DNA from: Thermoanaerobaculia bacterium
Lineage (GTDB): Bacteria > Acidobacteriota > Thermoanaerobaculia > Multivoradales > J023
NCBI GenBank assembly: GCA_028066595.1
Contig: JALCBJ010000017.1
Coordinates: forward strand, 1-64,000
Reading direction: 5' to 3'
DNA length: 64,000 bases
A model generated the notes under the pieces. That model did no database searches and was not told the origin of the DNA. It saw only the letters and a program-made list of their open reading frames with translations. Every line of letters begins with the position of its first letter. Position 1 is the first letter of the stretch. Position numbers and translations under genes: made by a program. This document shows, one piece after another, positions 2,519-20,889 of this stretch.

Positions 2519-4993
2519 ATGTTTCGAGCCACCCGCCTCGTCGCCGACCTGAACACCGCGCTCCGGTCGCTGTGTCGCCGTCCGACCCACAGTGCCTTGG
2601 TAGTCACCTTGATGGTCCTCGGAGTTGGCGGTACGACGGCCATCTACAGCTTGATGCACTCGATCCTCGTGGAGCCCTTGGGTTTCGAGGCCGAGGATCG
2701 CTTGGTGCATCTCGACGAGCGGGCGCCGGAATGGAACCTCGAGTCGGTTTCCATCGACCCGGCCGATTTCCTGGCCTGGCGAGAGGGGTCGCGCCACTTC
2801 GAAGCCATGGCGCTGTATCGCGATCGGGAGTTCAACTTGACTCCCGGCGACGGCGAGCCCGAGCGGCTTCTGGGCGGTCAGGTCAGCCACGATTTCCTCG
2901 ATGTCCTGGGACTCGCCCCTGTAGTGGGCCGCAGCTTTCGGGCTGAGGAGGATGTTCCCGACGGGCCGGCAGTGGTGATGCTCGGACACGAGCTATGGCG
3001 TAGCCGCTTCGGCGGTACTTCGGAAGTTCTCGGAACCACCGTGCGCCTCGATGCCGTGGCCCATGAGATCGTCGGCGTGTTACCGCCCGGACTGCACCTG
3101 CCGGAAGAGACACAACTGCTCGTACCGGCTGCACCCGATCCCGACCGTCCGGGTTCGTATTCCTACGACGCCATCGGCAGGCTGCGCACCGGCGTGTCGG
3201 TGCAGCAAGCCGCGGCCGATCTCGACGCAGCCTTGGCGGATCTCAAGGAGGCCTACCCGTACAAGCAAGCGACATCGGCGGTCGTGCAGCCATTGCGCGA
3301 GTATCTGGTCGGCGACAGCCGGAGGGCTGTCGAGACGTTGATGGTGGCGACGCTCCTGGTCCTCCTCGTGGCCTGCGCCAACGTCGCCAGCCTGATGTTG
3401 GCAGGTGGCGAGGCGCGGAGGCGGGAGATCGGAGTGCGTCGAGCGCTCGGCGCCGGTCGCTGGGACGTCGTCCGGCAACTGCTGGTCGAAAGCCTGTCGT
3501 TGGCGCTGCTCGGTGCGGGTGTCGGCGTCGGTGTGGCTTGGGCGGGGCTCGCGCTGGTGTCGCGCTTCGGCGTCGAGACGTTGCCGTTTTGGGTCGAGCT
3601 GGCGCTACAGCCAACCGCCACCGCCCTCAGTGTCACGGCCTGCGTCGGCGTCATGGCGCTCTTCGGTTTGCTGGCGGCGGTCCACTCGTCGGGCACGCCA
3701 CCTCGAGAGACTCTGCGCAGCCAGGACGCCCGCGGCGGCGGAGACCCTCGGCGCCATCGAGCTTTGTCTGCCCTGGTCACCGGCGAAATGGCGTTGGCTC
3801 AGCTGCTGCTGGTGGGCGCGGCCTTGGTTCTGCTGTCACAGCTTCGCATGCTCGACAACGATCCGGGTTTCCGGGTCGAGGGAGTCCAGAGCTTCCACGT
3901 CGCACTGCCCGAGTCGACCTACGGTGACGCGGCCGACCGAATGATCTTCTACCAGCGCTTGCGCGAACGGGCCGCTTCACTACCGGGAAACACTACCGCT
4001 CTCATCGACCTGCCACCCCTTCAGGGCCACAACGGTGGCTTCTTCGGCGCCGAAGGCGGGATCGAGCGAGACGAGGACACACCGCGACCCGTGGTGCTGG
4101 TGCGCTGGGCCAGCGCTGACTACTTCTCCGTCGTCGACATACCGCTGGTGGCTGGCCGGACCTTTCGCGAGCCCGGGCTACTCGAGCTGCCGGAGCTGGA
4201 CGACGATGGCGAGCTGGTGGATCCCGAGGCAGGCTACGCGCCCTACGAGGTGGTGGTGAACGAGACGTTCGCGCACACGTTCTTCGGCGATCGCGACCCG
4301 GTCGGCCGGCGCATCCGCACTGACGGTCATTGGATGACCATCGCGGGAGTCAGCCGCGACGTCAGACACTACGGGCTCGACCAAGAGGTACGGCCCGGCG
4401 TCTACCTACCCCTGGGCGCCCCGGTGTGGAGCCGGGTGCCGAGCCGCCTGGCCGTGGTCGCAGCTTCAGATGGCGCCGGCGCGGCCGCTCTGGAGACTTT
4501 CGCTCGCTCCGCTCGGCTGGTGGTCGCCGATATCGACCCGGAGTTACCGGTTTTCGATGTCACCAGCTTCTCGGGCGAGCTCGGCCGCTCGACTGCCCTG
4601 CGAAGGCTGACGTCGTGGCTGTTGGGACTGTTCGCAGCTACCGCCCTGGCTCTGGCCGCTTTCGGCACCTTTGCAGTCCTGAGCTTTGTCGTCGGTCAAC
4701 GTCGACATGAGTTGGGCGTCCGCATGGCGCTGGGTGCGTCGCGGGTCTCGCTCCTCCGCCATGTTCTGGGCCGCGGTCTGAGCCTGGCTGTGCTGGGTTC
4801 GGCACTCGGCCTGGGTGCGGCGCTTGCCTTTGGAGGGCTGCTGTCGACCCTGCTCTACGGTGTCGAGGCGCGTGACCCAACGGTCATGGTGGGTGTCTCG
4901 CTGCTGCTCCTGGGAGTCGCAACGTTGGCCAATGCCGTCCCGGCATTTCGTGCCAGCCGTCTGGATCCGATGAAGGTCCTTCGCAGCTCGTGA
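2519..4993 (+). CDS. ADOP-type ABC transporter permease (FtsX/MacB fold)
   Basis: 824 residues. Begins with a short N-terminal segment ('LNTALRSLCRRPTHSALVV') and one membrane helix, followed by a periplasmic MacB-PCD-like domain (about 60-270). Three helices with the FtsX signature follow ('ACANVASLMLAGGEARRREI', 'GVRRALGAGR'), then a second periplasmic domain and a second FtsX block near the end ('GQRRHELGVRMALGASR'). This duplicated layout with no ATPase domain defines the ADOP permeases that are very numerous in Acidobacteriota. The start has a strong AAGGAG seven bases upstream. No ATPase gene adjoins it. Substrate unknown; MacB relatives act on peptides, toxins or lipids by mechanotransmission. 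Confidence 0.9.
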   Translation: MFRATRLVADLNTALRSLCRRPTHSALVVTLMVLGVGGTTAIYSLMHSILVEPLGFEAEDRLVHLDERAPEWNLESVSIDPADFLAWREGSRHFEAMALYRDREFNLTPGDGEPERLLGGQVSHDFLDVLGLAPVVGRSFRAEEDVPDGPAVVMLGHELWRSRFGGTSEVLGTTVRLDAVAHEIVGVLPPGLHLPEETQLLVPAAPDPDRPGSYSYDAIGRLRTGVSVQQAAADLDAALADLKEAYPYKQATSAVVQPLREYLVGDSRRAVETLMVATLLVLLVACANVASLMLAGGEARRREIGVRRALGAGRWDVVRQLLVESLSLALLGAGVGVGVAWAGLALVSRFGVETLPFWVELALQPTATALSVTACVGVMALFGLLAAVHSSGTPPRETLRSQDARGGGDPRRHRALSALVTGEMALAQLLLVGAALVLLSQLRMLDNDPGFRVEGVQSFHVALPESTYGDAADRMIFYQRLRERAASLPGNTTALIDLPPLQGHNGGFFGAEGGIERDEDTPRPVVLVRWASADYFSVVDIPLVAGRTFREPGLLELPELDDDGELVDPEAGYAPYEVVVNETFAHTFFGDRDPVGRRIRTDGHWMTIAGVSRDVRHYGLDQEVRPGVYLPLGAPVWSRVPSRLAVVAASDGAGAAALETFARSARLVVADIDPELPVFDVTSFSGELGRSTALRRLTSWLLGLFAATALALAAFGTFAVLSFVVGQRRHELGVRMALGASRVSLLRHVLGRGLSLAVLGSALGLGAALAFGGLLSTLLYGVEARDPTVMVGVSLLLLGVATLANAVPAFRASRLDPMKVLRSS

Positions 4994-5073
4994 AGGCGGG
5001 ACGAGAATAGCCGGTCGTTGGCTCGGTAGCGCCGGACCTTGGTCAGCCTCGCTCGGAGACATACATGGTCTGC

Positions 5074-6765
5074 TTACTGCTCGGCTTTCGAAGCTTCGCT
5101 CGGAGTGACCCCGACGATCGGATCGATCGGTAGGTCTGTCGTGCTCGGTGCGGCAGGAGCGCGCAGACGCAGTGCCATCGCTTGCGCCTGCCGGCTGTAG
5201 TCGATCGATTCTCCGAGGATGCGCGCGGCTTCCTGGTCCGCGTGGAAGCCTCGTGAGTTCTCGCTACTTATGTAGTCGAGACGCCACATGGCTTTACGCT
5301 GCAATGCGTAGATTGGGGCGAGGTCCTCTTCCGTAGCACCCGTCGCCTTCGCTTCGAGAACGGCATCGAGCATGTCGGTCATCGCGATCGCCGCCTTCTC
5401 CATCAGCGCGCCAGTCCGAGCCTGGATCGTCTCGACCCGGTCCACCAGATCGGCTTCACCGACGTTGTGGCAATGCTGGCACGCGTTGTTGACGTTCTCG
5501 AGTGGGCTTCGCACGTTGTGGCTACTCACCTTCAATGCACCGTCGCGTTCGTACGGCATGTGACAGTCCGAACAGCTGACGCCACTCCGGGCGTGAACGC
5601 CTTGGCTCCACAATTCGAACTCGGGATGTTGCACTTTGTGCACCAGCGCCCCGGTCTCGCCATGCTTGTAGTCGTAGAACTCGGTGCCGTCCGGAAACAC
5701 TTTCTCGTCCCAATGCGCCTCGAGTTGTTCCATCTTCAGGCCCTTCGACCAGGGGAACTCGAGCGTGTCCTTGTTGGCGCAGTAGTACTCGACGTGGCAC
5801 TGGCCACACACGTATGAACGCATCTCTTGGCGCGTCGCATCCAGGTTCGGATCGTAGGGCGTGGTCCGGTCACCGCGCCGCCAGGCCTCGATACTCGGCA
5901 GATGAGGTGTCGGCTCCTCGCTGCCTGCAAGTGCCGCGATGCCCAAGACGAACCCGGGGCGCGTCACACGGATCGACATGGTCTCGGGATCGTGACAGTC
6001 GATGCAAGACACAGGATGGGCCTCACCACCACCGAGCGCCGGATGGTCCTCAGGGACCTCTTCTCCGGAGAACTCGCCCGAGAATCCTCCGAGCGGTGGT
6101 TGGGGAACCACCGGCTCGTGCTCTCCCGGAGTCCCGTCCGGAGCCGCCATGACCAAGGCAAGGACCTCGCCGTAGGGCAGGCGACTGACCTCCTGAAAAC
6201 CGCGGATCACCGCCTCCATGTCGAATTCCGCGGCGAGTGCCTCGTCATCCGCCGGCCTGCCCAAGGCCTTCAGGCCTTCTCTCCGATACATCACCGTGGC
6301 AGAAGCATGGCAGTGCAGGCAGGCTCCGGCCTGGGGCTTCTTCGTTACTCGCTCGGTAACCCCTTGGTCGTACAACATGTAGGCGTGTCCGCGAGCCTCA
6401 CGGTAGTCGAGGCTGAACGCGTAGCCCGCATAGAGTCGTTTCAGCCACGGGTGGTCGTCGAGCTTGCTCTGCGGCATGGCGCTGGCGCCACCGTAGAACT
6501 TATCGCCGGCGGTCGCCTTCCAGCCATCGAACTGATGGGGCCAGTTCTGTCCCCAGGGCTCGGGATCCGTGGAGATCTCACTGATCTCCGCCAGTCGGAC
6601 GAAGGGCTGACGTGCTTCCTGTTTGTGACCGAACATGGTCACGAGCACCCATGTCACGAGAAGCGTCGCGACCACCGCTGCCACAAAGACCATGATGAGC
6701 ATGCTGGTCTGGCGTCCAGAGGACGCTGGCGGTGGTGCCGTCGATGGGCGATCGTTCTCAGTCAT
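5074..6765 (-). CDS. nrfA: Cytochrome c nitrite reductase catalytic subunit, CXXCH type
   Basis: 563 residues with an N-terminal membrane anchor (about residues 22-48) and five heme motifs in NrfA order: CLHCH (about 149), CIDCH (254), CGQCH (318), CSDCH (398) and CQHCH (428). The third is followed by VEYY, supplying the active-site Tyr, and 'VQHPEFELW...GVHARSGVSCSDCHMP' carries the conserved His residues. The catalytic heme 1 site is CXXCH where the classical enzyme has CXXCK; CXXCH NrfA proteins are known, for example in Campylobacter. It reduces nitrite to ammonium outside the membrane using electrons from NrfH. An upstream in-frame codon at 6840 exists, but ATG 6765 has GAGGTGAG close upstream and is preferred. 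It lies 28 bases after nrfH. Confidence 0.93.
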   Translation of the reverse strand: MTENDRPSTAPPPASSGRQTSMLIMVFVAAVVATLLVTWVLVTMFGHKQEARQPFVRLAEISEISTDPEPWGQNWPHQFDGWKATAGDKFYGGASAMPQSKLDDHPWLKRLYAGYAFSLDYREARGHAYMLYDQGVTERVTKKPQAGACLHCHASATVMYRREGLKALGRPADDEALAAEFDMEAVIRGFQEVSRLPYGEVLALVMAAPDGTPGEHEPVVPQPPLGGFSGEFSGEEVPEDHPALGGGEAHPVSCIDCHDPETMSIRVTRPGFVLGIAALAGSEEPTPHLPSIEAWRRGDRTTPYDPNLDATRQEMRSYVCGQCHVEYYCANKDTLEFPWSKGLKMEQLEAHWDEKVFPDGTEFYDYKHGETGALVHKVQHPEFELWSQGVHARSGVSCSDCHMPYERDGALKVSSHNVRSPLENVNNACQHCHNVGEADLVDRVETIQARTGALMEKAAIAMTDMLDAVLEAKATGATEEDLAPIYALQRKAMWRLDYISSENSRGFHADQEAARILGESIDYSRQAQAMALRLRAPAAPSTTDLPIDPIVGVTPSEASKAEQ

Positions 6766-7828: not shown

Positions 7829-10495
7829 CTACTGGCAGGTGGCGAACGCCGCGGTATCGGTGATGGCGTCGGAGGCCTGGCCGAGTGGGTTGAAGTAGGT
7901 CTTGGTGACGTTGGTCTGGGTGTCAGTGACTCGCAGGGTGTACTCCACGTTGGTCGTGGCGGCAGCGAAGACCCAGAATCGGTCATTGAAGGTACAGGCG
8001 TCGAGGACCTTGATCAGGAGCTCCCAGTTGTCTTGGCCGAAGAACCAGAACAAGCCGGAATCGTTGGTGCAGAACTGCACCACGCGTCCCGGACCGGTGC
8101 CGTCTTGGAAGTCCCGCCAGTCCACCTCGATCTCGAATCGGTCGTCGTTGAGGAACAGCGTGGTGTCGGTGCCGGTGGTTTGGTTCGAACAGCCGAGATT
8201 CTTGGCCAGCTCGAGCGGGGGCGCGGAGGAGATGGTTTGTGCGGCCTCGAGGGGCGCCGAGAAACCGCAAGTCGCGAAGGCACCGATGTCGGTGATCGCC
8301 GGAGCTGCCGTGCCCAAGGGGTTGGAGTAGTTCACCGTTTCGCCACTGGCCGTATCGGTCACCTGCAGGGTGTACTCCACATTGGTCGTGGCGGCAGCGA
8401 AGACCCAGAATCGCTCATTGAACGTGCAACCGTCGAGGTTCTTGACCAACATTTCCCAGTTGTTCGCGCCGAAGAACCAGAACAGACCGGAATCGGTGGA
8501 CTGGTCCGTCAGAACTCGTTGACCTCGCCCGGCCTGGTCGCCGAACTCACGCCACAAGACACGATTCTGGAAGCGTCCACCGTTGAGGCAGAGAGTCGCG
8601 TCGCCGGGAACACAGGGCTGGCCCGCCGGGTACTCTTGGGTGCTGCCGGTGGCGGGCTCGGACCAGCTGCTGTTGCCGGTGTCTGTGAGAGCGCGAATCC
8701 GGAAGCCGAAGTGGGTGTTGGTGAGGATCTCGTCCAACGTGAGCTGTGTCGAGTTGGCGGGAGAGGTGGCGAAGGTGGCGAACGGAGAAGCCGCCCCGTC
8801 TTCGCGGCGGATCTGGATCTCGAACTCGGTCTCGTCGTTCGTATTGTCGACCCAGTCGAGGCGCACGGCGTGGGCCGACAAGCTGGTGACGACGAGGGAG
8901 GAGGGAGGAGTTGGACCGGAGGTGTTGACCGTGGCGAGGTTCGAATAGGCTGAGCCGCCGGCACCGTTGATCGCGCGCACGCGGTAGGTCAGGCTGCTTC
9001 CGGTCGGTGCGTTGGCGTCTTGGTACGAGCGGGTATTGGCTCCGAGAGAGATGATCTGCACGAAGCTCTGGCCGCCGGTCCGGCGTTCCACCAAGAAGTT
9101 GGATTCGTTGTCGGAGGTGTCATTCCAGCTCAGGTTGACCAGGCCGAGGCCGGCGTTGGACGCCGAGAGGCTCGTGGGAGCCGACGGCGGCAGTTGGGCC
9201 GCCCCGGGGTGAAGGAAGTTGATGCCGGCCCGATCATCGTTGTTGAGGCGGGCGCCCCGTCCGTCGGCGTGGACGGTCGCGCGCATGAGTGCATCGTTCT
9301 GCAGTGGTCGCCCGGAGCAGCTGCCGGAGGAGTCGTCGCCGCAGGAATGGCCCAGGCCGAGGGTGTGGCCCAGCTCGTGGCCGAAGACTTCCCGTGCCGT
9401 GGCCGGATTCCCCAGAATACAGCCCGTGTTTTCGTTGGTGACGATGTCGACCTCCACCCACCGGCCGAAAGACTGCCCTTGGTGCATGTGATCGTTGCTG
9501 AACCCGTAGCCGCCGCCGACCGCGATGACACCGCCCTGGGAGCAACTGAACGGCTCGTCGAAACCGCCAGCGCCACCTAAGTCGTCGAAGACGATGGTGT
9601 TGACGAAATCCCGGCCATTGAATCCGCTGGACGCTGTGGTCGTCCCGGCATACCGATACCGCACCTCGGATCCCGGATCGTTGTTCCATGCATTGATGGC
9701 GCTTTGAAATTCGTTGAAGCCGCCACCGGAGAGCCCAGGCTGACCATTCTGATGGGCGCGCAGGGAAATCGTTGCATTGCTGTCGAAGGCTCGCCAACGA
9801 AACGGCGGCGAAAACAGAGTGAACTTGTCGCCGATTTTCTCGGCAGCGACTGCGCGGAGTGTCTCGATCGGCTGGTCGCGCCAATACTCGGCCGCGGGTG
9901 CCCGGCCTGCGGCAATGCCGCGGATCCACGACACGAAGGGCTCGAGCTCGCGAGCTCTCTCGACCTCGGTGAGGATTTTGTCGTCTTCGGGTGTCAGAGA
10001 TTTACCCGTCAGATCCATCTCGCCACCGCCGAGAGACCGGAAGGCGTAGTCGCGACCGCCATGACGCACGGTCCGGAACACACCTTGGAAGAGATGGAGC
10101 GCGTCCCAGGTGTCGCGAAAACCCGGTTTCAAGAAGAGAACAGCCGTGGCCTGTGGTGCCGGGGGCTCGACTCCGTAGATCTTGAGGAACAATCCACCGG
10201 ACGTCTCGCCGCCGCGCCAGCGGACGGTCAACTCTTCGCTGTCGGCCAGATCACCGTGGATCACGCGACGTACGAGCATGCGCTGATACGTCGACGGCGA
10301 CGGCGCGTCGTAGGCCGGGCGCCAATCGGCAGCCTCCACTTCGACGATGACGCCCCCGCGATCTACCACCTGGCGCACCAGTGACTCATCCGCAACCCGG
10401 ACCCAAAGTGTGGCCGAAGCGGCTGCAGTACCGAGGATGCTGCAGAACGCAATAAGTGCGAAACGGAAGAAGAACGTGCTGCGCTGCTCGATCAT
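7829..10495 (-). CDS. Secreted metzincin-type metalloprotease with FnIII domains and tandem C-terminal repeats
   Basis: 888 residues. A signal peptide ('FALIAFCSILGTAAAS') is followed by a N-terminal domain. The catalytic domain carries the zinc motif HELGHTLGLGHSC (HExxHxxGxxH) with a Met-turn 'NDALMRATVH' about 25 residues later. Two fibronectin type III-like domains follow ('PPSAPTSLSASNAGLGLVNL' and 'PPSSLVVTSLSAHAVRLDWV'). The C terminus has two copies of a module of about 100 residues, each with 'LN..RF', 'DSGLFWFFG..NWE', 'NxRFWVFAAATTNVEYTL' and a final 'FATC'. Start at ATG 10495 has GGAG five bases upstream; a TTG at 10537 would add 14 residues. Likely an extracellular or surface peptidase; target unknown. 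Confidence 0.85.
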   Translation of the reverse strand: MIEQRSTFFFRFALIAFCSILGTAAASATLWVRVADESLVRQVVDRGGVIVEVEAADWRPAYDAPSPSTYQRMLVRRVIHGDLADSEELTVRWRGGETSGGLFLKIYGVEPPAPQATAVLFLKPGFRDTWDALHLFQGVFRTVRHGGRDYAFRSLGGGEMDLTGKSLTPEDDKILTEVERARELEPFVSWIRGIAAGRAPAAEYWRDQPIETLRAVAAEKIGDKFTLFSPPFRWRAFDSNATISLRAHQNGQPGLSGGGFNEFQSAINAWNNDPGSEVRYRYAGTTTASSGFNGRDFVNTIVFDDLGGAGGFDEPFSCSQGGVIAVGGGYGFSNDHMHQGQSFGRWVEVDIVTNENTGCILGNPATAREVFGHELGHTLGLGHSCGDDSSGSCSGRPLQNDALMRATVHADGRGARLNNDDRAGINFLHPGAAQLPPSAPTSLSASNAGLGLVNLSWNDTSDNESNFLVERRTGGQSFVQIISLGANTRSYQDANAPTGSSLTYRVRAINGAGGSAYSNLATVNTSGPTPPSSLVVTSLSAHAVRLDWVDNTNDETEFEIQIRREDGAASPFATFATSPANSTQLTLDEILTNTHFGFRIRALTDTGNSSWSEPATGSTQEYPAGQPCVPGDATLCLNGGRFQNRVLWREFGDQAGRGQRVLTDQSTDSGLFWFFGANNWEMLVKNLDGCTFNERFWVFAAATTNVEYTLQVTDTASGETVNYSNPLGTAAPAITDIGAFATCGFSAPLEAAQTISSAPPLELAKNLGCSNQTTGTDTTLFLNDDRFEIEVDWRDFQDGTGPGRVVQFCTNDSGLFWFFGQDNWELLIKVLDACTFNDRFWVFAAATTNVEYTLRVTDTQTNVTKTYFNPLGQASDAITDTAAFATCQ

Positions 10496-10645
10496 GGCCG
10501 CTCCGGAACTGATGAAGGTTTGAGCCGCGGTATTCAAGGCGACACATCATGTCAGTCTAGCATCGGATCACCGCGGATGGTTGCTCTCGGTGCCCCATCG
10601 GTCGCGCGAGCCAGGTGATTCGTCACACCGCGGGCAACCCATGGA

Positions 10646-14817: not shown

Positions 14818-15687
14818 ATGTCCCGCAGAACGTCACCCGTCGCCGCCTGCTCGATCCCCACGATATTCGTTCTTACCTGGGCCTTGGCCTGCCCGGCTCT
14901 GCTCGCGTCCGAACCGGCCGCGGTGGAGTCGCGCACCAGAGTCTGGATGGGACAGGATGGACCGCTTCCGTTTCAGGAAGCCGACGAGGTACTCGACTTC
15001 CTCGTCCATGCGGAGATCGTAGATAGGAAGCAGCTTTCTTCCGGCACTACCAATCCATGGCGGTTCGATCTCGAGCGAGACGGGGTGCGGGCCCGTGCGA
15101 TCTTCCGCACGATCAACCGGGAGTTCGGTCAAGACCTTCGCAAGGCCAAGGACAACTTTCGCCACGAGGTGGCAGCATGGGAGATCTCCCGTTTGCTCGG
15201 TCTCGAGCTGATTCCCCCGGTGACATTGCGTACCTGGGGTCGCAAGAGAGGGTCGATCCAGCTGTGGGTGGAGAACGCGCGCAGCGAGACCGAGCGCATC
15301 AGGGCCAACGTCACCCACGGCGACCGCGAGTGGGTCGAGACCCACAAGCAACGAATGCGGGTATTCGACGCGCTGATCTACAACTTCGATCGCAACACCG
15401 GCAATCTACTCTTCGACCAAGCCGGTAGCCTTTGGTTGGTCGATCACACCAGGGCGTTCAAGATCGAGCGCAAGCTGCCGCTGGATATCAGCCTCGACCG
15501 CTGCGAGCGGCAGCTCTGGTACAAGCTTCGGGATATGGATCGGAAACGGTTGAGGAAGGCTGTGAAGCCCTACCTCGAGCCTCTCCAGACAGCAGCCCTG
15601 ATGGAACGGCTCGAGAAACTGCAAGAGCACTTCTCCTCCCGCATCGCGGAGTTGGGAGAGGAGGCCGTCCTCTACGATCTTCCGTGA
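14818..15687 (+). CDS. Secreted PI3K/PI4K-like (HipA/Fam20-like) kinase-fold protein
   Basis: 289 residues. The N terminus ('CSIPTIFVLTWALACPALLA') looks like a Sec signal peptide. The body has the order expected of the PI3/4K-HipA fold: a short beta strand 'ARAIFRTI', an acidic helix 'NFRHEVAAWEISRLLGLELI', then the catalytic segment 'FDALIYNFDRNTGNLLFD' and the metal-binding 'LWLVDHTRAF'. The D..N pair and the DH(x)F motif are the residues this fold uses for ATP and metal. What is unusual is export: most HipA/PI4K-like proteins are cytoplasmic. The target is unknown. It follows the terminator of the DUF1573 gene and has its own start at ATG 14818 without an obvious ribosome binding site. 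Confidence 0.6.
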   Translation: MSRRTSPVAACSIPTIFVLTWALACPALLASEPAAVESRTRVWMGQDGPLPFQEADEVLDFLVHAEIVDRKQLSSGTTNPWRFDLERDGVRARAIFRTINREFGQDLRKAKDNFRHEVAAWEISRLLGLELIPPVTLRTWGRKRGSIQLWVENARSETERIRANVTHGDREWVETHKQRMRVFDALIYNFDRNTGNLLFDQAGSLWLVDHTRAFKIERKLPLDISLDRCERQLWYKLRDMDRKRLRKAVKPYLEPLQTAALMERLEKLQEHFSSRIAELGEEAVLYDLP

Positions 15688-18204: not shown

Positions 18205-18645
18205 ATGGGCCGCGAAATCGACATCTCACGCAACATCCTGGCACCGGCCGATACCGTGTGGGAGCTGCTCGAGAAGCCGGTCACCTGGAAGTCTTGGTGG
18301 CCTGAGTGTGAGAACGCGCGCATCCTCGACCGCGGTGCCTTGCGAGAGGGTTCGTCGATCGAAGTCACCCTGCGTCCCGACGCCCGCACGATCGACCTGC
18401 TGCCCACCGTGGATCTGTTCACCATGGGCAAGACGCTGAGCCTGACCCATCGCTCTTGGGCTCTCGCCGCCACCGCCAGTTTCTACCTATCCGCCAAGGA
18501 CAGCGGTACGCATGTTCGTGTACAGGCAGTGGTCGAGGGCCTCGGCGTGCTGTACGCGAGCCTCACGGGGAACGGTACTCTACCGCTTCAGCTCCTCGAC
18601 TCCGCTTTGCGAGGACTAAAACGCACTGCGGAACGCCTGGGTTGA
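18205..18645 (+). CDS. SRPBCC (START/Bet v 1-like) family protein
   Basis: 146 residues. The opening 'ISRNILAPADTVWELLEKPV' followed by 'TWKSWWPECENARIL' is the usual first helix-grip pattern of SRPBCC proteins. The chain ends in a long helix ('LPLQLLDSALRGLKRTAERL') as expected for the fold, which forms a hydrophobic pocket for lipids or other ligands. AAGGAG directly precedes the ATG at 18205. It lies just upstream of the GAF/kinase gene. Confidence 0.75.
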   Translation: MGREIDISRNILAPADTVWELLEKPVTWKSWWPECENARILDRGALREGSSIEVTLRPDARTIDLLPTVDLFTMGKTLSLTHRSWALAATASFYLSAKDSGTHVRVQAVVEGLGVLYASLTGNGTLPLQLLDSALRGLKRTAERLG

Positions 18646-18665
18646 GCGAGGCGAAGAAAGGACGG

Positions 18666-20303
18666 ATGTCCGGCTCCTCGTTCGACGACGACGGTGGCGG
18701 TGTCCGCCCCGATCGACCGTATCGGTTCGACACGAGCAACCTTGAGATCCCGCACTCTGGATCGGTTCGGACAACCGATGTCGACACCTCTGTCGAAGGC
18801 GAGGCCGCCAACCCTCGAGGACGTCTCGGACGGGCCGTGCAAAGACTCTTCTTTCCGGATCAGTGGGCCAAGGAGCAGGTCCTACTCGATCTGATCGAGG
18901 ACTTACCTCTCTGCCGATCCGAGCACGAGTTGGCACGTCGTACCCTTGACGCCGTCGACCAGGCACTCCGGCCAGAGGTGGTGCATCTCTTCGTCCGTCG
19001 GGCCGTACGCTTTCGGTTGCTGCGCTCCACCGACCAGCCCACCGACGGCAAGACACTCCTGCCGGCCGAATTCGGACTGCCAGGATTGGCGGCCGATTGG
19101 CGGGAGCCACGCCACACTTCGTCGATGCCCGACCTCCAGCACGACGAGAGAGCGTGGCTGCGCAGCAGACAGGTGCGCTGGGTGGTTCCACTCTGCCATC
19201 CCGACCCGGAAGTCGGGCTCTGTGGCCTGCTGCTTCTGGGCGCGCGGCAAGGAGGATATTCGCCAGTGCAGCGCGATCTCCTGCAAGCGGTCGCCGGGCG
19301 ATTGGCACTGGAGCTCTTCCGTCAGTTCGAGCGCCTACGTGAGCGCTTGCGTGAACGCCGCGGTCGCGGTGACTGGCTGCTCGAATGCCCGGAGTGCGGA
19401 CGTTGCTACAGCGGCCGCGACTACTTCTGCCGGCACGACGATTCCACCATCGAGCCGACGCTCTTGATCGAGCGCGATGTCGACGGCCGCTATCGCCTGG
19501 AGCAGCGGCTCGGATCTGGCGGTATGGGTCGGGTCTATCGCGCACGCGACCTGGAGGCAGACAGTCCTGTAGCGCTGAAGATCCTCACCGGAGGCGACCG
19601 GGTGGCACTCGGCCGCTTCGCCAACGAGGCGCGCGCCGGACGCAGGATTCGCCACCCCGCGGTGGTCGAGGTGGCAGATTCGGGCACCCTGGGCCGCCAC
19701 GGAGCCTATCTGGTGATGGAGTTCATTCCCGGCGTCACCTTGCGCGAAGCGCTCAAGCGAAGTGGTGCTTTCGATCCAGTCGACCTGGCCGACTGGTTCG
19801 ACGACGTGCTCGCGGGCGTGGCGGCTGCCCACGAAGTGGGTGTCATTCACCGCGATCTGAAACCCGAGAACGTCATGATCGTGGACACCGAGACGAGATG
19901 CCGCGCAACGGTTCTCGATTTCGGCCTCGCCAAGATGCGAGCGTCCGACTCGAATCCGAACACGCTCACAGCTGCCGGCATGGTCCTCGGAACGCTGGCC
20001 TACATGTCGCCGGAGCAACTCCAGGGTGATCGGGTCGACCATCGCTCCGATCTCTACACTCTCGGTGTCCTGGCAGCCGAAGCGCTCACCGGAGACCTAC
20101 CGTTCCAGGCCGAGACCTTGGGAGAAATGCTGCGCAAGGTCGCCGACACGCCCTTCCGAATGAAGGTTCGGAACACGGCCCAAGCAACAGTCGCCGACAT
20201 CCTGGCCAAGGCCCTGGAGAAAGCGGCTGACGATCGCTATCCCGATGTCGCGAGCTTTCGTGGGGAGCTGATTCCGGCGCTTCGGCAGTGCCCCAAGTTC
20301 TGA
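18666..20303 (+). CDS. Ser/Thr protein kinase with N-terminal GAF-like domain and zinc ribbon
   Basis: 545 residues from ATG 18666, which has GAAAGGA just upstream. Residues about 70-225 read like a GAF sensor ('EQVLLDLIEDLPLCRSEHEL' to 'GLCGLLLLGARQGGYSPVQR'), followed by an arginine-rich helix. A short zinc-ribbon-like insert (about 240-260) contains CPECGRC...FCRHD. The kinase domain (about 275-540) has GSGGMGRVY, 'VALKIL', HRDLKPENVM, 'LDFGLAKM', 'GTLAYMSPEQ' and 'DLYTLGVLAAEALTG'. All catalytic residues are present. No membrane helix is seen, so it is probably cytoplasmic. Confidence 0.9.
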   Translation: MSGSSFDDDGGGVRPDRPYRFDTSNLEIPHSGSVRTTDVDTSVEGEAANPRGRLGRAVQRLFFPDQWAKEQVLLDLIEDLPLCRSEHELARRTLDAVDQALRPEVVHLFVRRAVRFRLLRSTDQPTDGKTLLPAEFGLPGLAADWREPRHTSSMPDLQHDERAWLRSRQVRWVVPLCHPDPEVGLCGLLLLGARQGGYSPVQRDLLQAVAGRLALELFRQFERLRERLRERRGRGDWLLECPECGRCYSGRDYFCRHDDSTIEPTLLIERDVDGRYRLEQRLGSGGMGRVYRARDLEADSPVALKILTGGDRVALGRFANEARAGRRIRHPAVVEVADSGTLGRHGAYLVMEFIPGVTLREALKRSGAFDPVDLADWFDDVLAGVAAAHEVGVIHRDLKPENVMIVDTETRCRATVLDFGLAKMRASDSNPNTLTAAGMVLGTLAYMSPEQLQGDRVDHRSDLYTLGVLAAEALTGDLPFQAETLGEMLRKVADTPFRMKVRNTAQATVADILAKALEKAADDRYPDVASFRGELIPALRQCPKF

Positions 20304-20346: not shown

Positions 20347-20889
20347 TCAGCGGAAGCCGCGGCGCAACTCGGTCTTGAAGACTTCGAACTTCTCGTCTGT
20401 CGGCAGCACCACGACGACCCGCTCGATTTTGGTACCGCCTTGCAGATAACGATATACCTCAGTGAGCAGGATCCTGGCACAGCGATCGAGAGGGAACCCG
20501 AAGTTGCCGGTGGCGATGGCCGGCAAGGCTATGGATTTGAGGCCATGGCGGTCAGCGAGTGCGAGGGACGAACGTACCGCACTTTGTAGCTTCCGATCTT
20601 CCTCACCTTCTCCCTGGCGCGGACCGACCGCGTGGATCACGTGAGGCGCCTGCAAGTTTCCCCCTCCGGTAAGAACCGCCGTGCCGGTTGGAGTGTGGCC
20701 GATCCGATCGCATTCTTCCTGGATCGACTGACCGCCCTTGTTCAGGATGGCGCCGGCCACGCCCGAGCCGAGCTGCAGGTCCTCGTTGGCCGCATTGACG
20801 ATCGCGTCTACCGCTAGATCGGTGATGTCGCCTTCGAGAAGCTCGAGCTGAGTACCTTCCAGCTGAATCGACAGGTGTCTGGGTTCCAT
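20347..20889 (-). CDS. Macro-domain protein (O-acetyl-ADP-ribose deacetylase type)
   Basis: 180 residues, a single macro domain: 'LLEGDITDLAVDAIVNAANE' with the ADP-ribose-binding Asp and Asn residues, 'GSGVAGAILNKGG', 'VIHAVGPRQGEG' and 'IALPAIATGNFGFPLDR'. This is the MacroD/YmdB pattern, cytoplasmic enzymes that remove ADP-ribose or deacetylate O-acetyl-ADP-ribose. No ADP-ribosyl transferase or sirtuin gene adjoins it. It is convergent with the kinase gene and stands alone; GGAG lies upstream of the ATG. Confidence 0.92.
   Translation of the reverse strand: MEPRHLSIQLEGTQLELLEGDITDLAVDAIVNAANEDLQLGSGVAGAILNKGGQSIQEECDRIGHTPTGTAVLTGGGNLQAPHVIHAVGPRQGEGEEDRKLQSAVRSSLALADRHGLKSIALPAIATGNFGFPLDRCARILLTEVYRYLQGGTKIERVVVVLPTDEKFEVFKTELRRGFR

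Follow-up and report, generated by a model that had tools for sequence, protein, structure and literature searches.

The window, a 64,000-nucleotide stretch of a contig from a Thermoanaerobaculia genome, contains a forward-strand gene encoding a protein of 289 amino acids with a predicted signal peptide and a kinase-like core (Table 1). The reading frame starts with ATG, is preceded by GGAG about 8 nucleotides upstream, and lies on contig C153 of the window's genome, where it occurs in a single copy. The N-terminus of the protein, MSRRTSPVAACSIPTIFVLTWALACPALLAS, appears by eye to be a typical signal peptide, as it has a basic n-region followed by a hydrophobic core and small residues near position 30; its best 12-residue hydropathy window reaches 2.25. 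The remainder of the protein after residues 1-30 forms one domain.

Directly around the gene, a DUF1573 protein (curated model), a thymidylate-kinase-like protein (by eye), and a DNA polymerase III subunit-like protein are encoded. These were absent from the recurrent neighbours of the gene's relatives and were set aside. Elsewhere in the window, the list of open reading frames contains a probable Ser/Thr protein kinase with an HRDLKPEN motif behind a GAF-like region (18456-20303, forward strand), and two further products were recognized by eye: a macro-domain-like protein of the ADP-ribose-binding type (20347-20889, reverse strand) and an exported protein with an HExxHxxGxxH metalloprotease motif and fibronectin-like repeats (7829-10537, reverse strand).

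Table 1. Coordinates of the kinase gene and of the predicted functional residues of its product; fractions refer to the 81 compared members.
Feature	Position	Strand	Basis
Exported Fam20/PI4K-II-like kinase gene, 289 aa	14818..15687	+	ORF, model, fold and profile match
Predicted signal peptide, about residues 1-30	14818..14907	+	Sequence, hydropathy, homologues likewise
R82 in a basic column (K 37, R 30 of 81), putative phosphate binder in first strands	15061..15063	+	Alignment column, role inferred
R97 in place of the beta-3 Lys (K 33, R 30, H 13 of 81)	15106..15108	+	Aligned with FKP Lys of Fam20A/C
D112, acid five before helix-C Glu (D/E in 79/81)	15151..15153	+	Alignment; PMC5865150
E117, helix-C Glu (E in 56/81)	15166..15168	+	Alignment
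D191, predicted catalytic Asp (76/81)	15388..15390	+	Alignment
N196, predicted metal-binding Asn (76/81)	15403..15405	+	Alignment
D209 of VDHTRAF, DFG-equivalent Asp (81/81)	15442..15444	+	Alignment; Fam20C Asp478 equivalent (PMC5413348)

A comparable hydrophobic stretch precedes the kinase domain in 77 of 82 homologues; in the other 5, the start is doubtful, the gene sits at the edge of a contig, or the stretch narrowly misses the threshold. As the stretch is shared this widely, we rejected a mis-called start, and predicted export, assessed by hydropathy only, is a property of the kinase family. The signal peptide proposed in a first-pass annotation of the locus is thereby upheld.

The AlphaFold model of the protein, built from 75 aligned sequences, was confident (pLDDT 94.5, pTM 0.91). 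Its best matches among PDB folds were hydra Fam20, Fam20A, and Fam20C (Foldseek E-value 7.8e-10). Upon re-alignment, hydra Fam20 gave a Z-score of 21.0 over 236 residues (rmsd 3.4), followed by Fam20C (20.2), PI4K-II (18.6), CtkA (16.2), actin-fragmin kinase (12.7), and HipA (12.3). Searching PDB sequences with a profile of the family returned Fam20A (E-value 3.7e-15), Fam20C (7e-11), hydra Fam20 (3.5e-10), and PI4K-II (2.5e-4), with the Fam20 alignment spanning the catalytic region, the C-terminal helices, and some of the N-lobe. The first-pass annotation had described a secreted protein with a kinase fold "of the PI4K/HipA type" and had named a predicted structure lacking that fold, or a mis-called start lacking a signal peptide, as grounds for abandoning it. 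The kinase fold and the export signal both held up, and the assignment was right in kind, with PI4K-II as the second-best fold, but Fam20 is closest and HipA clearly further away. Of the comparisons it suggested, that with Fam20C proved the most telling.

Searches with the protein alone found no match among PDB chains and no relative in a contig scan, which is due to divergence, as shown by the profile and whole-genome searches. Its single-sequence matches to HipA_2 (E-value 1e-3) and PI3_PI4_kinase (E-value 0.02; PF00454, 15.2 bits against a cut-off of 27.1) were weak and below cut-off, and its match to the SCO1664 model TIGR03843 (E-value 1e-16) reached 60.8 bits against a cut-off of 172.4. 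Among 75 family members, TIGR03843 matched 74 (best 1.3e-18), PF00454 matched 42 (best 3.3e-8), and the Fam20C model PF06702 matched 29 at E≤0.1 (best 2e-5), though not the window protein itself. The FAM198 model matched 23 members at E≤0.1, and a KDO kinase model weakly matched 18. When the Fam20C model was run on 149 genomes of the same class, all 12 matches coincided in their coordinates with members of the kinase family; none exceeded the cut-off (best 24.4 against 26.8 bits), and there were 0 matches in 14 control genomes. CotH kinases were not among the matches listed for the curated models, the fold re-alignment, and the 75 members, a listing that does not exclude CotH.

Several features are shared with Fam20, the animal secretory-pathway kinases Fam20A/B/C and the closest solved fold: a significant profile match, a signal peptide (by hydropathy), an acid five residues before the helix-C Glu, and the motifs FD..I.N.DR and D..R.F. 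However, the bacterial core counts about 260 residues, against 350-440 in Fam20, and the bacterial kinase falls below the PF06702 cut-off and is fused to a phosphatase in some relatives. Fam20 also has conserved disulfides (PMC5413348, PMC5865150), whereas these are absent from the window protein, whose mature form has a single Cys. Because of the missed cut-off and the absent disulfides, we did not file it as Fam20. Filing as SCO1664, PI3/PI4 kinase, or HipA was likewise rejected, as scores lay below the curated cut-offs or the characteristic domains were missing. The closest curated bacterial models are SCO1664 (TIGR03843) and HipA_2 (PF20613); the one actinobacterial SCO1664-like protein compared lacks a visible signal peptide and carries Thr five residues before the helix-C Glu. 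HipA toxin kinases belong to the same broad superfamily, but the window protein is predicted to be exported, has no HipA domain, including the N-terminal one, and has no adjacent HipB partner, so a HipA toxin was rejected. Instead, we propose, from sequence and model, that the protein would function in the manner of an exported Fam20 or PI4K-II enzyme. PMC7948968 presents the Fam20 kinases as a family of animals, and a survey calls the FAM20 cluster specific to eukaryotes or Metazoa (PMC9758233). We found no publication on a bacterial Fam20 in the open-access literature searched.

The D..N and DH motifs noted previously are real: the first lies in FDALIYNFDRNTGN (D191, N196) and the second in WLVDHTRAF (D209-H210). 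In Fam20, the acid five residues before the helix-C Glu corresponds to Asp152 in hydra and Glu213 in C. elegans, where it is ion-paired to Lys, while the position is occupied by Gln in the pseudokinase Fam20A (PMC5865150). By alignment, D112 of the window protein sits at this position of the unusual Fam20 ion-pair acid. All 60 single-domain members, the window protein included, retain D191, N196, and D209.

Other positions vary more. In the window protein, Arg takes the place of the beta-3 Lys, and in seven operon-borne fusions (L040, L052, L057, L060, L068, L070, and L085) this position is His, with the helix-C Glu replaced by Asn or Gln. Judging by the alignment, His with Asn/Gln is a consistent non-canonical active-site set in many of the operon-borne fusions. 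Among the 81 aligned members, D191 is lost in the fusions L055, L066, L073, and L087 and changed in a fifth fusion, L105. L055, L066, L073, L083, and L087 form one clade with Asp instead of Asn at position 196, and their kinase domains are probable pseudokinase domains. Given the non-canonical beta-3 and helix-C residues and the loss of D191 in some fusions, some members may be pseudokinases, which, together with the Arg of the window protein, counts against an active kinase. The protein could be a secreted pseudokinase or allosteric partner, which would bind nucleotide or a partner, sense exported ATP, and control the phosphatase without phosphotransfer. Fam20A, which activates Fam20C, offers a precedent (PMC5413348), and the altered residues at 97 and 117 and the lost D191 fit such a role; the intact D191, N196, and D209 in all single-domain members do not, and we consider it rather improbable for the window protein.

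Chemistries other than phosphotransfer, such as AMPylation and polyglutamylation, are known for some kinase-fold enzymes, and the changes at the beta-3 and helix-C positions of some members could point in that direction. AMPylation had been put forward in the first-pass annotation, and our results neither support nor exclude it. Taken together, such chemistries seem highly improbable: the sequence gives no readable hint of an inverted ATP site, and phosphate transfer agrees better with a phosphatase as partner.

The kinase is widespread in the phylum. In the class-level sample of 149 genomes, 42 had a match, of which 41 were strong; the kinase set excludes the weak match in one genome (G098, 6e-5). 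Genomes carry up to 7 copies. Across the phylum, the kinase was found in 78 of 396 sampled Acidobacteriota genomes, about a fifth, representing 50 of 210 genera. Alignment A1 proved too divergent for pattern scanning, whereas the smaller A2 yielded 23 named loci. Named loci lie in MAGs of Thermoanaerobaculia and other Acidobacteriota, and some come from MAGs with the labels Myxococcota, Deltaproteobacteria, Desulfatiglandales, and, weakly, Gammaproteobacteria, labels that may be wrong. A gammaproteobacterial MAG contains a phosphatase-kinase-like fusion frame with PPP motifs (L157, 4573-6486), which suggests a wider spread.

In 21 of the 81 compared members, about a quarter, the kinase domain lies behind a PPP-type phosphatase with the motifs GD.HG, GD..DRG, GNHE, and usually (I/L/V)D(S/T)G; a signal peptide is mostly visible. 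The starred branches of the kinase tree force at least 6 changes of fusion state, so joining or separation of the two domains has recurred. The genome of the window encodes a separate phosphatase, on another contig, with GDIHG, GDFLDRG, GNHE, HGG, and IDTG, thus combining the PPP motifs with the (I/L/V)D(S/T)G signature of Shelph phosphatases. It matched structures of the Shewanella psychrophilic protein-tyrosine-phosphatase, the Shelph prototype (PMC535813, which also defines the motif), with an E-value of 1e-28. Unlike known Shelphs, the partner phosphatase is fused to an exported kinase in relatives, a fusion for which we found no description in the open-access literature. The phosphatase also bears on the fold's second-best match. 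An exported PI4K-II-type lipid kinase (phosphoinositide-like) would agree with the Z-score of PI4K-II and with the PF00454 matches, but Fam20 scores higher by both profile and fold and the partner is a Shelph phosphatase, making this very unlikely.

The same partner helps to weigh possible substrates. As Fam20B illustrates, this fold can act on sugars, and the protein could be an exported glycan or small-molecule kinase that phosphorylates a cell-envelope sugar or secreted metabolite, with the phosphatase trimming the product. The closest single structure, hydra Fam20, is a Fam20B-like xylosylkinase, sugar activity is ancestral for Fam20 in animals (PMC5865150), and the weak KDO kinase matches point the same way. 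Against this, the nearest matches of the partner phosphatase bear the name protein-tyrosine-phosphatase, no glycan-biosynthesis genes were recognized among the recurrent neighbours of relatives, and the high copy number in some genomes suggests several substrates. We regard a glycan or small-molecule kinase as a credible but unlikely alternative and favour a protein substrate, since the Shelph group includes protein-phosphatase members. VWFA-related TIGR03436 proteins are encoded no more than a few genes away from nine single-domain kinase loci (L034, L035, L036, L039, L056, L059, L078, L107, and L110). Genomes with such a neighbour carry 12-52 TIGR03436 copies each and chance could explain about half of the cases; as kinase substrates, these proteins are a lead only.

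The first-pass annotation had suggested looking for conserved neighbours in relatives, and relatives do have an operon, which, like the phosphatase fusions, was out of sight for that annotation. At 13 loci in 13 genomes, genes for an NTT-type translocase with HEAT repeats, a cyclic-nucleotide-binding (cNBD) protein, and the phosphatase-kinase fusion occur in exactly this order, and 5 more loci have the order translocase-HEAT, cNBD, phosphatase. In a relative of the same genus (G026), genes for the cNBD protein, the phosphatase, and an unfused kinase lie in a row. The translocase has a TLC domain above cut-off and HEAT repeats, and its profile matched solved ATP/ADP carriers (9j3n, 1.2e-28; the chloroplastic 9j3j, 4.4e-26). 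All three partners are present in the genome of the window, where the kinase is linked to neither the translocase nor the phosphatase: the adjacent cNBD and phosphatase genes (C28:7666-9257, or 4667-6258 of locus L117) share a contig, other than that of the kinase, with the translocase gene (C28:165963-168770; TLC 49.4 bits against a cut-off of 21, then HEAT repeats).

Co-occurrence agreed with this linkage. Counted at an E-value of about 1e-30 or better, the translocase was present in 41 of 41 kinase genomes and in 5 of 108 others (Fisher 1.6e-31), a p-value that overstates independence because the 149 genomes are related. The phosphatase was present in 39 of 41 kinase genomes versus 2 of 108 others, and co-occurrence of phosphatase and translocase stood at 40 of 41 versus 6 of 108. 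The set also recurs in scattered members of families that mostly lack it (3 genomes of family f7 and 1 of f10).

NTT-HEAT proteins, including some with a cNBD gene directly downstream as found here, were described in 2017 with no demonstrated transport activity and no assigned function (PMC5381601). The word "kinase" is absent from the text of that paper, whereas here the same architecture shares an operon with a phosphatase-kinase, an arrangement for which our open-access search likewise found no publication. NTT-HEAT proteins are also widespread outside the kinase system.

Our preferred reading, to which we assign a probability of roughly 0.55, is that the protein is an atypical kinase located outside the cytoplasm, in the periplasm or at the surface, which has a pared-down Fam20/PI4K-II fold and acts within a module of ATP translocase, cNBD protein, and phosphatase. 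The translocase-HEAT protein, in the inner membrane, would trade ATP for ADP, letting ATP leave the cytoplasm down its gradient toward the periplasm, and the cytoplasmic cyclic-nucleotide-binding protein would tune it. The kinase, probably an active phosphotransferase, would move phosphate from ATP onto exported proteins or, less likely, glycans, and the exported Shelph-type phosphatase, fused to the kinase in many relatives, would remove it again. We infer catalysis, the protein substrate, the direction of ATP transport, and cyclic-nucleotide regulation from the computed export signals, fold, active-site residues, fusion, operon, and co-occurrence.

More broadly, and tentatively, Acidobacteriota may possess a self-contained system of extracytoplasmic reversible phosphorylation that combines cyclic-nucleotide-tuned ATP export, Fam20-like kinases, and fused Shelph phosphatases, and the animal secretory-pathway kinases may have arisen from this bacterial branch or have a recent root in common with it. 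A widespread exported bacterial relative would provide the animal Fam20 kinases with a prokaryotic counterpart. The common view is that the periplasm lacks ATP, so that an exported kinase poses an energy problem; an ATP/ADP translocase that co-occurs almost perfectly with the kinase and is linked to it in operons offers a concrete, testable answer. Conversely, the link to the kinase gives a testable role to the uncharacterized NTT-HEAT fusions of free-living bacteria.
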